Shown: in pieces, positions 22,079-27,784 of the stretch
Position numbering within the stretch: the first letter of the stretch is position 1
Layout of the letters: every line of letters begins with the position of its first letter
NCBI GenBank assembly: GCA_029262315.1
Contig: JAJCZP010000218.1
Coordinates: 1-35,927 of the forward strand
Reading direction: 5' to 3'
Origin: Deltaproteobacteria bacterium
Lineage (GTDB): Bacteria; Desulfobacterota; Binatia; UTPRO1
Length of the DNA stretch: 35,927 bases
Position numbers and translations under genes: made by a program
The notes under the pieces: generated by a model
The model's input: the letters and a program-made list of their open reading frames with translations, nothing else
Told to the model about the DNA's origin: nothing
Database searches by the model: none

Positions 22079-23638
22079 ATGATCAAGATAGCGGGTTGCG
22101 CTCATAGTGCGCGTTTCGGAGCACGCGGGTTCGTCTTCGCGGTGGTCGCGATGATCCTCGTCGCCGTGCCGGCGCGCGCGGGCGATCGCGGTGTGCAGTT
22201 CACGCCCGACGGGAAGCGCGTACTTGCCAACAAGGATGTTGGCACCGAACGGTGGGCGATCGCCCTCAATGCCGACGGGACGGTCACGGGCAACGTCTTC
22301 AGGACCGACGGCGGGATGCCCGCGTTCATCGCGTGTGATCCGCTCGCGGGCGACAACGCCTTTGCCTGCTTTGGCGCGGATCCCTGCAGTGACGACGGTG
22401 GCGTGGCGCGCGGCATCCAGCGCACGCCCGACGGCGAGCGTGTGCTCGTGAGCAAGGACGTCGGCCCCGATCGCTGGGCGATTACCCTGAACGGCGATGG
22501 GACCGTGACCGGCAACGTGTTTCGCGGGGGCGGGGGCGCGCCGGCTTTCCTTGCGTGTGATCCCCTGGAGGCGGCGAACAGTTTCGCGTGCTTTGGGGCG
22601 GATGCCTGCAACTCGGCGCCGTGTGACGGCCTCTTCTCGTTCATCGACGATGTTACCCTGCCGGCCGAATTCTTCGAGGTGCCGGCCTCCTGTGGGGCGC
22701 CGTTCGGGTTTCTGGCCAACGTCACGTTGCCGGACGGTTTCTTCGCGTTGCAGGTTGCCGAGGACGTCGTGTCGTCCATCGCGACCGGGGATGGGGTGAT
22801 CGCCGTGCTGCGGATTGGGGCGGCGCCGATTCCTGGCCTCGGTGCGCCGAATCCGATTGCGGGCGTGTTGGGCAACACGAACGTCAGTCCCGGCGGCACC
22901 AACGAGCTGGATATCTTCTTCAGCGGGTTCGCGGGGGCCAGCGCGAGTACGGCGCAGCGCGATTCTCAGTCGACGGGCGCGGCGCTGGTCGTCGCGATCG
23001 GCGACGAGGCGTGTGCCCCTACGGATCTCGTGAGCGACTGGTTCGAGGTCCCGCTCGACACGGCTTCTGGGCAGCTCGATCTGTCGGTGTCGTTCTCAGA
23101 GGCACTCGAGGACGGGGACTTCGTGATCTGCATCACCACGATCGAGGATGGGGTGATTGGCGAGTACTTCGTCGTGCAGCAAACCGCTGGGGAGAGCCCA
23201 ACAACACCCGGCGTCGATGAATCGTGTTTCGACGTGATCGTCGACATCGCCGCCAGTGACGACATCCTGGCCGCGGCCTTCTTCCTGGAGTACCCACCGG
23301 ACGCACTCAGCATGCCGGGATCGCAGTTTTCTGGTGATCTCGTTCCGGAGACGGCGGAACGCGCCACGTTCTTGATGCCGTTCACGGAGGCAACGCCGCT
23401 CGCCGACTTCGACCTGCTGGGTGGGCCGGAGGGTGGGCAAGACGGGCTTGACGAGACGCTGTTCTTCGCGGTGACCGCCGACGAGTCTTTTCCCCCAGGC
23501 GACGTGGCACGCATTTCCTTTGATTGCGTGGCAGGTGTTCCGCCGCCCCCCGTCAACGAGTTCATCTGTACGGTGACCGCTGTTGGATCAGGTGGGGCGA
23601 ACAGCAATGCCACCTGCGGGGTGCGCGCGGCGCCGTAG
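22079..23638 (+). CDS. secreted protein with an N-terminal tandem repeat
   Basis: The 519-residue protein has a signal peptide (FAVVAMILVAVPARA) and then two tandem copies of a roughly 70-residue module: FTPDGKRVLANKDVG...ACDPLAGDNAFACFGADPC and RTPDGERVLVSKDVG...ACDPLEAANSFACFGADAC. Each carries one WAI-(A/T)-LN-x-DGTVTGNVFR core and a Cys pair. After a linker, residues about 190-330 form a beta-rich region with Cys, and residues 380-500 have a cohesin-like or immunoglobulin-like look (DESCFDVIVDIAASDD, AFFLEYPPDAL, GDVARISFDC). I know no function. The repeat and secretion suggest surface display or matrix binding. GGAGG precedes the ATG. Confidence 0.68.
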   Translation: MIKIAGCAHSARFGARGFVFAVVAMILVAVPARAGDRGVQFTPDGKRVLANKDVGTERWAIALNADGTVTGNVFRTDGGMPAFIACDPLAGDNAFACFGADPCSDDGGVARGIQRTPDGERVLVSKDVGPDRWAITLNGDGTVTGNVFRGGGGAPAFLACDPLEAANSFACFGADACNSAPCDGLFSFIDDVTLPAEFFEVPASCGAPFGFLANVTLPDGFFALQVAEDVVSSIATGDGVIAVLRIGAAPIPGLGAPNPIAGVLGNTNVSPGGTNELDIFFSGFAGASASTAQRDSQSTGAALVVAIGDEACAPTDLVSDWFEVPLDTASGQLDLSVSFSEALEDGDFVICITTIEDGVIGEYFVVQQTAGESPTTPGVDESCFDVIVDIAASDDILAAAFFLEYPPDALSMPGSQFSGDLVPETAERATFLMPFTEATPLADFDLLGGPEGGQDGLDETLFFAVTADESFPPGDVARISFDCVAGVPPPPVNEFICTVTAVGSGGANSNATCGVRAAP

Positions 23639-24062: not shown

Positions 24063-25853
24063 CTAGGGGCGCCGGATCCGTCGGTCGAGGATGTCGTTCT
24101 CGATCACAGGGATGAGGTCTTCCAGGATCGAGTCTTCGAATCGGCCGGAGGTCGCCTCTTCTATCTCGGGAACCTGGGTCTCCGGGATGGTGTGATTGAC
24201 ATAGAACGAGCCCGTGCGGCCGCCGGAGCCGGGGAGGAACGCCATATACATGTTCTGGAGTTGCCCGGTGAGGATGAGCGCGTCGAGGAGGAGGCGCACT
24301 TGTTCGAAGTCTTGCGGCTTCTGGCCGTATCCGCCGAGGAAGTAGACGATCGGAAAGCTGTCCTCGCTTCGGAAGAACGCCGGGGGGCGGTAGACGACGA
24401 TGTCGCGCATTGGCGTCGCGGCGCCGTCTCGCAGGGCGGGTGATGGGAGGGCGCCGGTGACGATGTCGCCGGTCGGGTCGAGGTTCGGCGGTTCGAAGTC
24501 GATGTCGAGACCCGGGAAGTCGATGTCGAGATCGGGCGCGTTGCCCGAGCCTGGTCCGAAGACGCCGTCGGGAAAGCTCTCGTTCAGAAACCCGATCATG
24601 CTGATGATTCGTTGCCAGACGGTGCCCGTGCCGCAGACGTCACCGTTCAGCAGATCGTCGGGATCGACACTCTCGAAGCCGACATGGCCCGCGGGGTAGC
24701 GCACGAGGAGGAACGGGGCATTCGGTCCGGGGAGATCGGTGCAGTTGCCGTCAAACCCGTCCTGGATGGCCACGGCGATGCCCTTCGCGACGAGGACGTC
24801 GACGAGATCGGCGTAGTGCTGCGCGAAGCCGAGTTCGTCTTCCGTGCCGACGTCCATGTAGATCCGTTGCGTACGGATGGCATCGGCGGAGAGACCCTCC
24901 AGACGGGTGAGCGGATCCTGAGCGAACCAACGGGCCCGGTCTGGGTCGTAGTCGAAGGTGCCGTTTCCTTCGCCGAAGTCCCCGCTTCCCGGGACGCCAT
25001 CGAGGCCGTCATCGTCGAAGGTCTCCCCGCGATCGGGCTCGAACACGAAGTTTAGGTTCGGGTCGGTGAACGGTTCGGAGTAGTTGACGACGAGGCCGTC
25101 TCCGACGTCGAAGATGCCATCGGCGTCGAGGTCGGCGACCTCGCGGCCCGCGCGTTCGACGCGGGTCGCCCCAGGCGCAATGGCGGCGAGTGATCCCCCC
25201 GCAACTAGCATTACGTCCGTTGCCACTCGCGGCAACTCGTCGAGTTGGCGCAGGCCATCCTCGTTGGTGTCACCGCCGTCGACGAATCCGCGTGCGTCCG
25301 CGGGGAGCGTGAAGGACCCATAGAGGTCGTCGATGAGTGTCGTGGCTGGTTCGGAGTCGCGGGCGAGATACTGCCGGCTCGGGTCGGAGTGATGGAGGAA
25401 GGGGTTGCCGAAGGCGATCGACAGGTCCTGAAACATCCTGATCCGTGAGTCGCGCTCGGGGTAGGGGGGAAGGTGGTCGAAGGTGAAGTCCTCACCGACT
25501 TGGCGTGGCAGCGTGGTCTGCGTCTTGACCTCGAGGTTGTCCTCGATGCTATCGCGGAGCAGTTGGCCCATCGAGACTGGTCCGCCGAGCGATGCGATGG
25601 TTCCGAAGAGATCGCCGTGCTTGGTGCCGAGGTTCAGTGCACCGTAGCCGCCCATGGAAACGCCGGCGATGGCGCGGAACTCGCGGCTCGCCTCGAGCGC
25701 CGGCGCCGGTCCGGTGGTATCCTCGCTCTCGCCGCTGCTGCCGCTCCCGCACCCGACGGCAAGGCCCCCGATGAGGATCGCGGCGGTGGCGATCCATCGA
25801 CGCATCTCCGCGCGATGTCGATGTCGCGTGATAGCCGATTGCATTGGTGTCAT
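24063..25853 (-). CDS. lipoprotein esterase with an apparently circularly permuted alpha/beta-hydrolase fold
   Basis: The 596-residue protein has a lipobox LAVGC (Cys35), then REFRAIAGVSMGGYGALN (nucleophile elbow, Ser66), DLFGTIASLGGP and a large insert with Asp-rich loops (DTNEDGLRQLDE, DLDADGIFDVGD). Later come YMDVGTEDELGF and YPAGHVGFE, positions for the acid and His of the triad. The last 115 residues (482-596) carry what is normally the N-terminal half of esterase D / antigen-85-like proteins: DIVVYRPP, FPIVYFLGGYGQ, MYMAFLPGSGG, GSFYVNHTIPE and FEDSILEDLIPVIEND. Normally that final motif runs straight into ASREFRAIAGVSMGG. Starts at 25853, 25844 and 25805 are possible; 25844 has a GGGGG at good distance. 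It should hydrolyse an ester at the periplasmic face; substrate unknown. Confidence 0.8.
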   Translation of the reverse strand: MTPMQSAITRHRHRAEMRRWIATAAILIGGLAVGCGSGSSGESEDTTGPAPALEASREFRAIAGVSMGGYGALNLGTKHGDLFGTIASLGGPVSMGQLLRDSIEDNLEVKTQTTLPRQVGEDFTFDHLPPYPERDSRIRMFQDLSIAFGNPFLHHSDPSRQYLARDSEPATTLIDDLYGSFTLPADARGFVDGGDTNEDGLRQLDELPRVATDVMLVAGGSLAAIAPGATRVERAGREVADLDADGIFDVGDGLVVNYSEPFTDPNLNFVFEPDRGETFDDDGLDGVPGSGDFGEGNGTFDYDPDRARWFAQDPLTRLEGLSADAIRTQRIYMDVGTEDELGFAQHYADLVDVLVAKGIAVAIQDGFDGNCTDLPGPNAPFLLVRYPAGHVGFESVDPDDLLNGDVCGTGTVWQRIISMIGFLNESFPDGVFGPGSGNAPDLDIDFPGLDIDFEPPNLDPTGDIVTGALPSPALRDGAATPMRDIVVYRPPAFFRSEDSFPIVYFLGGYGQKPQDFEQVRLLLDALILTGQLQNMYMAFLPGSGGRTGSFYVNHTIPETQVPEIEEATSGRFEDSILEDLIPVIENDILDRRIRRP

Positions 25854-26056: not shown

Positions 26057-27784
26057 ATGGGGTACGTTCGGCCGATGCCGCTGGCGTCGGGCAATCCCTT
26101 GGTGTCGATCATCACGCCGACGCGGCTGCGGCCGGATTTCTTGCGGCGCTGTATCCTGGCGATCCAGCGCCAGGAAATGGCGGAACACGAGCACATCATC
26201 GTCGCCGATCGCTGCCCGCTATCGCGGGCGGTGTACGAGGAGTTCGCGGAGGATGCGCGGATCGTGTTTGCCGAACTCACGACGTGCGTGTGCGATCCGA
26301 TCCTTCGCCGGACGCGCATCAGTCACAATGCCTCCTGCGCGAGGAATCTGGCGCTGACGCTCGCGCGGGCCGACGTCATCGCCTATTGCGACGACGACAA
26401 CGTGCTCCTGCCGAACCATACGCGCACGGCCTTGGAGTATCTGGCGGAGCATCCCGAGGTGGACGGGCTCTGCACGCAATACGTCCACAACAACTGGTCC
26501 CGGAGTTCCTCGTACGATGCGGTGTTCGCGGCCGATCTCTACGATACGAGCTTTCAGGATGGGCACGGAACGTGGGACACCAGCGTGTTCGTGCATCGGG
26601 CGGAGGTGCCGAAGCGGTACGGGTTCTGGAGGCCGTTGGCGGAGGCGTTGTTCGGCTTCGATCGTCGTTGGGCGCTGTCCTGGGGGAGGATTACCCGTTC
26701 GCGTCTTCCGCGGAGCACGAGTGTACGGCAGTGGGGATCCTGGCTCTCGCTGAAGGCGCGCAGCATGATGCGATTGCCGGTCGTTAGCGAGGATCACGAA
26801 CTCTTCATGTGGTGGCGGCGTCAGGGGGCGCGCCTCACCACGGTGGCGGTGACGACGTGCATCTATCACGCACATAGGGGCAACGTACTCTGTCACAGCC
26901 AAGGTGGGGACGAGCCGCGGTTGGAGCGACGTCGGCGCGAGGCGTACCGCGCGCGGCTTGGTGTGGCGGCGACCGAAGTCGGAGTGCTCGAAGCGGCGTC
27001 AGCGTACGGGGGTGCCGCGAGTCGGAGCCTCGTCCGACGGGTCCAGCGATTCTGGGGTGGTCTGCGTGTGGCGGCGGGGGAGATCGCCCGGCTGATCCCC
27101 GATCTCGTCGCGGTGCCGAGTTGGGTGCGCACACGCCGTCGCCGCGTGCGGGACATCCACGACCTCGAGCTTGGTCACCTGCGGAGTATGCGCGAGCGCG
27201 CCGCCGTCGATGCGACCGGGAGACCGGTGCCTTGGTATACCTATCCGGCCATCGAGTTTCTGCGGCAACTCGATCTCGGCTCCTTCGACGTGCTCGAGTT
27301 TGGCGCCGGCAACTCGACCGCGTTCTGGGCTGAACGAGCCCGCCGGGTCGTGTCGGTCGAGAGCGATCCCGCGTGGTATCGGCGGCTGGCCGCGGATGTA
27401 CGGGACAATCAGACCCTGTGGCTGCACGAGAACTGCGCGAGCTACGTTGCGGCGCCTGCTGCGCTCGAGATGCGGTTCGATATCGTCGTGATCGACGGGC
27501 GGTGGCGGAAATCGTGCGCCGAGGCGGCTACGCGCTATCTGAAGTCGGACGGCCTGCTCGTGTTCGACAACGCCGACTGGTTTCCCGCTTCGTGTGCGCT
27601 GCTGCGACGCGCCGGGCTTCTTCAGCTCGACCTGAGCGGGTTCTCGCCGATCAACGACTATCGCTCGACGACCGCGATCTTCGTGCGCGCCGGTACGCGA
27701 TTGCAGGAGGGCTACCGGAACCCGTTACCCATCGGGGGCTTGGATCAAGTCGGCGTGCCCGAAGACGACTACGAAGAGCGCTAG
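26057..27784 (+). CDS. glycosyltransferase family 2 fused to a SAM-methyltransferase-like domain
   Basis: The 575-residue protein begins with a GT-A glycosyltransferase: PLVSIITPTRLRPDFLRRCI at the N-terminus, the diphosphate/metal motif YCDDDNVL (Asp112-114) and an acceptor-side region with VSEDHELFMWWRRQGAR. After a basic linker (about 280-370) comes a Rossmann methyltransferase-like domain with VLEFGAGNSTAFWAERA (motif I, Glu414-Gly418), VVSVESDPAWY and FDIVVIDGRWRKSC. The final part has DGLLVFDNADW. It would build and perhaps methylate a surface sugar. The GGAG just before ATG 26057 supports the start. It is not within a polysaccharide gene cluster here, so its substrate is open. Confidence 0.85.
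   Translation: MGYVRPMPLASGNPLVSIITPTRLRPDFLRRCILAIQRQEMAEHEHIIVADRCPLSRAVYEEFAEDARIVFAELTTCVCDPILRRTRISHNASCARNLALTLARADVIAYCDDDNVLLPNHTRTALEYLAEHPEVDGLCTQYVHNNWSRSSSYDAVFAADLYDTSFQDGHGTWDTSVFVHRAEVPKRYGFWRPLAEALFGFDRRWALSWGRITRSRLPRSTSVRQWGSWLSLKARSMMRLPVVSEDHELFMWWRRQGARLTTVAVTTCIYHAHRGNVLCHSQGGDEPRLERRRREAYRARLGVAATEVGVLEAASAYGGAASRSLVRRVQRFWGGLRVAAGEIARLIPDLVAVPSWVRTRRRRVRDIHDLELGHLRSMRERAAVDATGRPVPWYTYPAIEFLRQLDLGSFDVLEFGAGNSTAFWAERARRVVSVESDPAWYRRLAADVRDNQTLWLHENCASYVAAPAALEMRFDIVVIDGRWRKSCAEAATRYLKSDGLLVFDNADWFPASCALLRRAGLLQLDLSGFSPINDYRSTTAIFVRAGTRLQEGYRNPLPIGGLDQVGVPEDDYEER

Follow-up and report, generated by a model that had tools for sequence, protein, structure and literature searches.

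The question raised by this locus is whether a single gene of a soil bacterium encodes an alpha/beta-hydrolase whose chain has been naturally circularly permuted. The gene lies in a contig of 35,927 nucleotides, referred to here as the window. Its ORF, 24063-25853 on the minus strand, encodes 596 amino acids (coordinates including the stop), and the GC contents of its three codon positions (0.69/0.45/0.81) are those of a typical coding frame. Our analysis points to a serine esterase that is secreted and probably lipid-anchored, with an alpha/beta-hydrolase domain of the CE1/PF00756 kind that is very likely a natural circular permutant; this reading is built on the computed order of the parts, the conservation of that order in two clades, the conservation of the catalytic triad, and a predicted single-domain fold. 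The parts of the gene, in the order of the protein, are these:

24063..25853, minus strand: the whole ORF, very likely a circularly permuted alpha/beta-hydrolase (esterase) of 596 aa, from profiles, relatives and codon GC.
25749..25805, minus strand: predicted lipoprotein signal peptide, residues 17-35, MRRWIATAAILIGGLAVGC, from a sequence pattern.
25569..25697, minus strand: beta5-alphaC-beta6 with the elbow GVSMGG, residues 53-95, matching PF00756 positions 116-152; in the structure model a strand at 60-65, a helix at 67-78 and a strand at 85-89.
25656..25658, minus strand: predicted nucleophile Ser66, a serine in all members covering the site.
24918..25316, minus strand: Asp-rich insert between beta6 and beta7, residues 180-312, from a motif scan and conservation.
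24837..24839, minus strand: predicted catalytic acid Asp339 (GTED), an aspartate in all members covering the site.
24684..24686, minus strand: predicted catalytic His390 (PAGHVGF), a histidine in all members covering the site.
24474..24557, minus strand: residues 433-460, the low-complexity, Asp-rich linker between the former C- and N-termini.
24066..24473, minus strand: former N-terminal half, beta1-beta2-beta3 (oxyanion loop LGGYGQ)-alphaA-beta4-alphaB, residues 461-596, from NF041944 (478-589), PDB 8z91 (3-106) and the model.

A preliminary description of this DNA had proposed that the protein starts with the nucleophile-elbow half of the fold and ends with the half that usually precedes it, and all of the motifs that it quoted are present. 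The predicted signal peptide ends in ..GGLAVGC and is followed by a short Gly/Ser-rich stretch and then by the nucleophile-elbow segment SREFRAIAGVSMGGYGALN (residues ~56-74); residues 53-95, which usually lie mid-fold, are here the start of the fold. GTEDE (336-340) and PAGHVGF (386-392) lie between the halves. Near the C-terminus are IVYFLGGYGQ (502-511), GSFYVN and FEDSILEDLIPVIEND (to ~587), and the protein closes with IVYFLGGYGQ…GSFYVN…FEDSILEDLIPVIENDILDRRIRRP. The break falls where it had been placed, between the EDLIP-x-I-(D/E) helix and the ASRE-x-RAIAG strand, with the chain starting at beta5 and ending with alphaB.

Profile searches recover the two halves in this swapped, cyclic order. 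The Pfam model PF00756 (Esterase) matches residues 58-95 only, at profile positions 116-152 of 251, and the esterase N-half of the NCBIfam model NF041944 matches the C-terminal residues 478-589. The PF00756 score passes the Pfam gathering cut-off of 22 bits in the native order (49.3 bits) and rises to 56.8 bits when the sequence is un-permuted, with profile positions 9-152 then covered continuously as against 116-152 natively; at E<=0.01, 19 of the 21 family members match this model. A profile of the family aligns to PDB 8z91 (E 4.8e-21) in three blocks that follow each other cyclically: family positions 449-545 on chain positions 3-106, 51-84 on 131-164, and 287-338 on 230-282. Profile blocks in cyclic order are also seen with CE1 feruloyl esterases. 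When the family was un-permuted in silico, 8z91 was matched over 3-164 in one piece at 70.6 bits, compared with 46.2 bits for the best native piece, and the feruloyl esterase 7xrt scored 52.4 bits as opposed to 39.5 bits natively (whole sequence).

A rotation test used an HMM built from ordinary relatives only, against which cyclic rotations at every sixth residue were scored for five permuted proteins and, as controls, for three ordinary ones. The best single match of the window protein rose from 46.6 to 82.3 bits, and those of the other four permuted proteins from 44.6 to 88.7, 46.7 to 83.7, 49.9 to 98.6 and 51.8 to 85.2 bits. The gain was therefore 33-49 bits in all five permuted proteins and at most 1 bit in each of the three controls (103.1 to 103.8, 103.4 to 103.4 and 62.5 to 63.5 bits). 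One of the permuted proteins (L021, 49.9 to 98.6 bits) gave this gain with its signal peptide removed and almost none with it kept, because the signal peptide then falls between the rejoined halves. Together with the profile blocks, the test indicates that the swapped pattern is more than chance. For annotation by linear profiles the consequence is that a mere fragment of such an enzyme is caught, Pfam covering 38 of the 596 residues.

An unusual order of parts in a fragmented draft assembly (298 contigs) could be an artefact of assembly or recent rearrangement, or could mark a pseudogene. The relatives speak against this reading, to which we assign a negligible probability: the same order is found at full length in at least 14 other genomes of the phylum (14 at ~36-65% identity), as homologues that the preliminary description had suggested looking for, and the triad residues are conserved. 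The occurrence of full-length relatives with the same order in other genomes rules out an assembly error. Clade A comprises complete copies in nine other genomes with 52-65% identity (relatives search), hosted by Candidatus Binatia and by one genome outside that class (G371, 871 bits; class by kinship label). Clade B comprises six genes in five genomes (G385 with two genes, G326, G457, G528 and G530) of another class of the same phylum, at ~36% identity. Its break is identical to that of clade A, members ending in ..HIDNHLQTK or similar and starting with ..GKGSPQYRAIAGVSMGG, and all full-length relatives share the position of the C-terminal end. The homologous segments are cyclically shifted with respect to ordinary relatives and are kept so in independent genomes, which by sequence marks the protein as a circular permutant. 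A search of genome contigs returned one relative, apparently on the same contig as G049:C575, and searches of plasmids and viral contigs returned no relatives of the permuted esterase. One genome of the set (G092) has an intact copy on contig C68 and a second copy (L015/L017, C27) that is split between two frames by a frameshift or sequencing error. A tree of un-permuted sequences that also included 15 ordinary relatives, unrooted and with several long ordinary rows, has a branch (99/97) that sets clades A and B together on one side; one permutation event is thus enough to account for both.

Ser66, Asp339 and His390 are invariant in every covering member of both clades, in line with the earlier suggestion that an acid in GTEDE and a histidine in PAGHVGF, lying between the halves, might keep a full triad. 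We place the catalytic acid at the Asp of GTxD because Asp339 aligns with the D of GTAD in an ordinary relative (L024). The LGGYGQ loop (506-511), well conserved in clade A and represented by L(G/L)GYN in clade B, is C-terminal to all three residues, which gives the order Ser-Asp-His-oxyanion. Traits of PF00756 are accordingly divided: the GxSxG nucleophile, the acid after beta7 and the histidine after beta8 are present, and the conventional order (oxyanion-Ser-Asp-His) is absent. From what is known of the family, the permuted esterase would hydrolyse an extracellular ester through this triad.

The linker has the traits that a joining of old ends would leave. It includes DLDIDFPGLDIDFEPP, is variable in length, and is much shorter in several relatives (L004/L053, L006, L008, L009 and clade B); its position is where ordinary relatives end (alphaF) and begin. 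In the ordinary relative L024, the counterpart of residue ~461 closely follows the signal peptide, and that of residue ~430 is near the C-terminus. The Asp-rich insert carries EF-hand-loop-like motifs, namely DTNEDGLRQLDE, DLDADGIFDVGD and a degenerate third, DPNLNFVFEPDR, and a motif scan finds DxDxDGxxDxxD/E loops in the protein. Such loops are conserved in both clades (in relatives as DTNGNGVFDAGE and similar), and no insert of this kind was seen in the ordinary relatives examined. EF-hand and dockerin Pfam models gave no match in the window protein or in family members; judged by its loops, the insert may bind Ca2+ and stabilise the domain.

Whether the two halves form one hydrolase domain was addressed by structure prediction. 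An AlphaFold2 model from 21 sequences has a mean pLDDT of 65 and a pTM of 0.65, with core blocks at 75-94 and the Asp-rich insert low; the first run, from 12 sequences, had reached a pLDDT of 54 before clade B was added. The order of elements in the model is beta5 (60-65)-alphaC-beta6-insert-beta7-alphaE-beta8-alphaF-linker-beta1-beta2-beta3-alphaA-beta4-alphaB (572-588), which is the textbook order of the alpha/beta-hydrolases cut between alphaB and beta5. Top Foldseek matches cover a half-domain only, since Foldseek aligns sequentially. With VIA-align 2, nearly all listed rows of PDB chains also cover mainly one half (model ~4-388 or 412-551), and among the aligned chains only 2d80/2d81, a polyhydroxybutyrate (PHB) depolymerase of Penicillium funiculosum, align near end to end over both halves. 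The 2d81 alignment has a Z of 15.2 over 240 residues at 4.0 Å (model 10-547 on chain 28-338), and 2d80/2d81 gave a Z of 14.3 with the first model. At the moderate confidence of the model, the predicted structure agrees with the same three-dimensional fold as in unpermuted relatives. The segments of a circular permutant can in principle swap between chains, and the very short linker of several relatives would fit halves that pair with another chain, as a domain-swapped dimer, or with a separate partner and form no single-chain domain. We consider this very unlikely: both halves always occur in one protein with a conserved stop, and the model of the monomer can be aligned, across the two halves, with one chain of a permuted hydrolase.

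Two outcomes that would have spoken against the preliminary description were thus not observed, as the modelled halves form one domain with 240 residues aligned on a permuted hydrolase and an assembly rearrangement is incompatible with the relatives found in other genomes. Its central proposal of a natural circular permutation is borne out by the profiles, the rotation test, the further genomes (at least 14) and both AlphaFold2 models. The class that it named, an esterase D or antigen-85-like fold, calls for a minor correction, the domain being placed with CE1-like PF00756 esterases and not with esterase D or antigen 85 proper. Closest to the family by sequence is 8z91, a soil metagenomic esterase (E 3e-31), and CE1-type feruloyl and acetyl-xylan esterases (1jjf/1jt2, 5vol, 7xrt, 6rzn, 8bbp; PF00756) are close sequence relatives. 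These enzymes share with the family the GxSMGG elbow, the acid after beta7, the histidine after beta8 and the N-half motifs SPAL..YLPP..GSFY.N.., but have the ordinary chain order. S-formylglutathione hydrolase / esterase D (TIGR02821) belongs to the PF00756 superfamily and matches locally at the nucleophile elbow; the window protein scores 15.8 bits against its cut-off of 281.7, and is therefore not a member, and unlike esterase D it is predicted to be secreted and is permuted. Mycobacterial antigen 85 and MPT51 are alpha/beta-hydrolases of the same broad group that are not permuted. Ag85C aligns to the model only partially (Z 7.9, 154 residues), and MPT51 gives a weak sequence match (E 0.4).

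The best near-full-length structural match, 2D80/2D81, leads to the type 2 extracellular polyhydroxyalkanoate (PHA) depolymerases, in which the order Ser-Asp-His-oxyanion and the cut between alphaB and beta5 are those of the family. The structure 2D80 was reportedly recognised as a circularly permuted variant by Hisano et al. in 2006. The permuted order of the esterase is unusual, yet it is not unprecedented among alpha/beta-hydrolases, given the same cut in these depolymerases, which the preliminary description did not mention. In type 2 enzymes, among which that of P. funiculosum is listed, the oxyanion hole is C-terminal to the triad (PMC2666664). The identical chain order and cut, this position of the oxyanion hole (PMC2666664), and 2d80/2d81 as best structural match (Z 15) would all suit a divergent type 2 depolymerase that shares the known permutation event. 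Sequence comparison speaks against it, a relation between the two groups not being detectable. The type 2 model NF050059 (cut-off 280 bits) matches none of the 21 family members at E<=0.01 and has no match in the source genome, which carries the permuted esterase gene. A search with PF10503 (Esterase_PHB) over 58 related genomes did not pick up the gene. Among PDB sequences compared with the family profile at E up to 10, there are 39 matches, nearly all to ordinary PF00756-type esterases, with 8z91 at 3e-31 and 2d80 absent. A genuine type 2 depolymerase does occur in the phylum (L128, G318:C51:80694-81677), with 352.6 bits to NF050059; its score with the family profile is -3.4 bits, whereas ordinary CE1-type esterases score 50-108 bits. 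Over 395 genomes of the phylum, this protein alone passes the NF050059 cut-off, and the type 2 motif order is visible in it, with a lipase box near the N-terminus and an oxyanion-like HG near the C-terminus. The NF050059 and family-profile scores rule out membership among the type 2 depolymerases, and descent from their permutation event appears very unlikely.

Closeness to CE1/PF00756 and the lack of a sequence relation to the type 2 enzymes argue for an independent permutation at the same site, and two independent permutations at the same loop are the simplest and most likely reading. The family probably represents a second, independent and ancient permutation at the alphaB/beta5 site of the type 2 PHA depolymerases, arisen within CE1/PF00756 and fixed in two bacterial clades, with an anchor or accessory domains (Fn3-like repeats, an NKDVG domain) placed directly before the nucleophile strand. 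In the proposed history, the gene would first have been duplicated in tandem and in frame. Copy one would then have lost its first half and copy two its last half, so that the chain became cut between alphaB and beta5 and its former C- and N-terminal ends were connected through a short linker of variable length. Tandem duplication with subsequent loss of the outer halves is the general model of circular permutation reviewed in PMC3320104. No duplicated intermediate was seen. The resulting chain would run from Ser66 through the Ca2+-binding-like insert, Asp339, His390 and the linker to the oxyanion loop, and its two segments would fold back into one ordinary hydrolase domain. Catalysis would then follow the standard Ser-Asp-His mechanism, with an acyl-enzyme on Ser66, while the LGGYGQ loop and the residue that follows Ser66 would support the oxyanion.

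Natural circular permutations appear to be rare among alpha/beta-hydrolases. In the open-access literature searched, the cases found were mainly engineered proteins, rearranged edge strands and the arrangement of the type 2 PHA depolymerases, and we found in it no description of a permuted CE1/PF00756 esterase. A second, sequence-independent case at the same loop suggests that the fold is preferentially cut at the alphaB/beta5 site. Homology between the ordinary and the permuted forms can still be recognised (E 3e-31), and they make a natural pair for testing how chain order affects folding, stability and the attachment of domains.

The position of the cut has the consequence that an anchor or accessory domain sits directly before beta5. 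The window protein, like most relatives of clade A, carries the lipobox pattern [AVLIF]x[GA]C; its residue at -3 is Ala, not the commonest choice at that site. By this pattern and by family knowledge, the permuted esterase would be exported and lipid-anchored. L008, L010 and clade B are without a lipobox. In three clade B members (L023, L072, L073), Fn3-like repeats were recognised by eye at the N-terminus, and L008 and L010 have an extra N-terminal domain instead of a lipoprotein-like signal. The extra domain of L008 shares 47% identity over 70 residues with the product of the gene at 22079-23638 (plus strand) in the window.

That neighbour is a secreted protein with two copies of one domain (repeats at ~22181-22600), of the form xxDGKRVLANKDVGTERWAIALNADGTVTGNVFRTDGGxPAFIACDP and without a Pfam match. 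This NKDVG domain has 20 matches over ~12 ORFs of the source genome and is lineage-expanded and apparently undescribed. In another genus it is fused N-terminally to the permuted esterase (L008:1114-1560, L010), which links two neighbouring genes of the window. Across 15 loci, no conserved neighbourhood was found beyond the esterase itself and the domain shared with this neighbour, and no conserved neighbouring gene pointed to a substrate. On the same strand as the esterase, 26 bases downstream of its stop, starts a gene for a DUF6713 membrane-like protein (PF20460; 23668-24036, minus strand), which was not seen beside other copies of the permuted esterase; given the spacing, co-transcription with the esterase is possible. 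On the other side of the esterase gene, a single ORF at 26057-27784 (plus strand) appears to join a family 2 glycosyltransferase to a Methyltransf_24-like domain.
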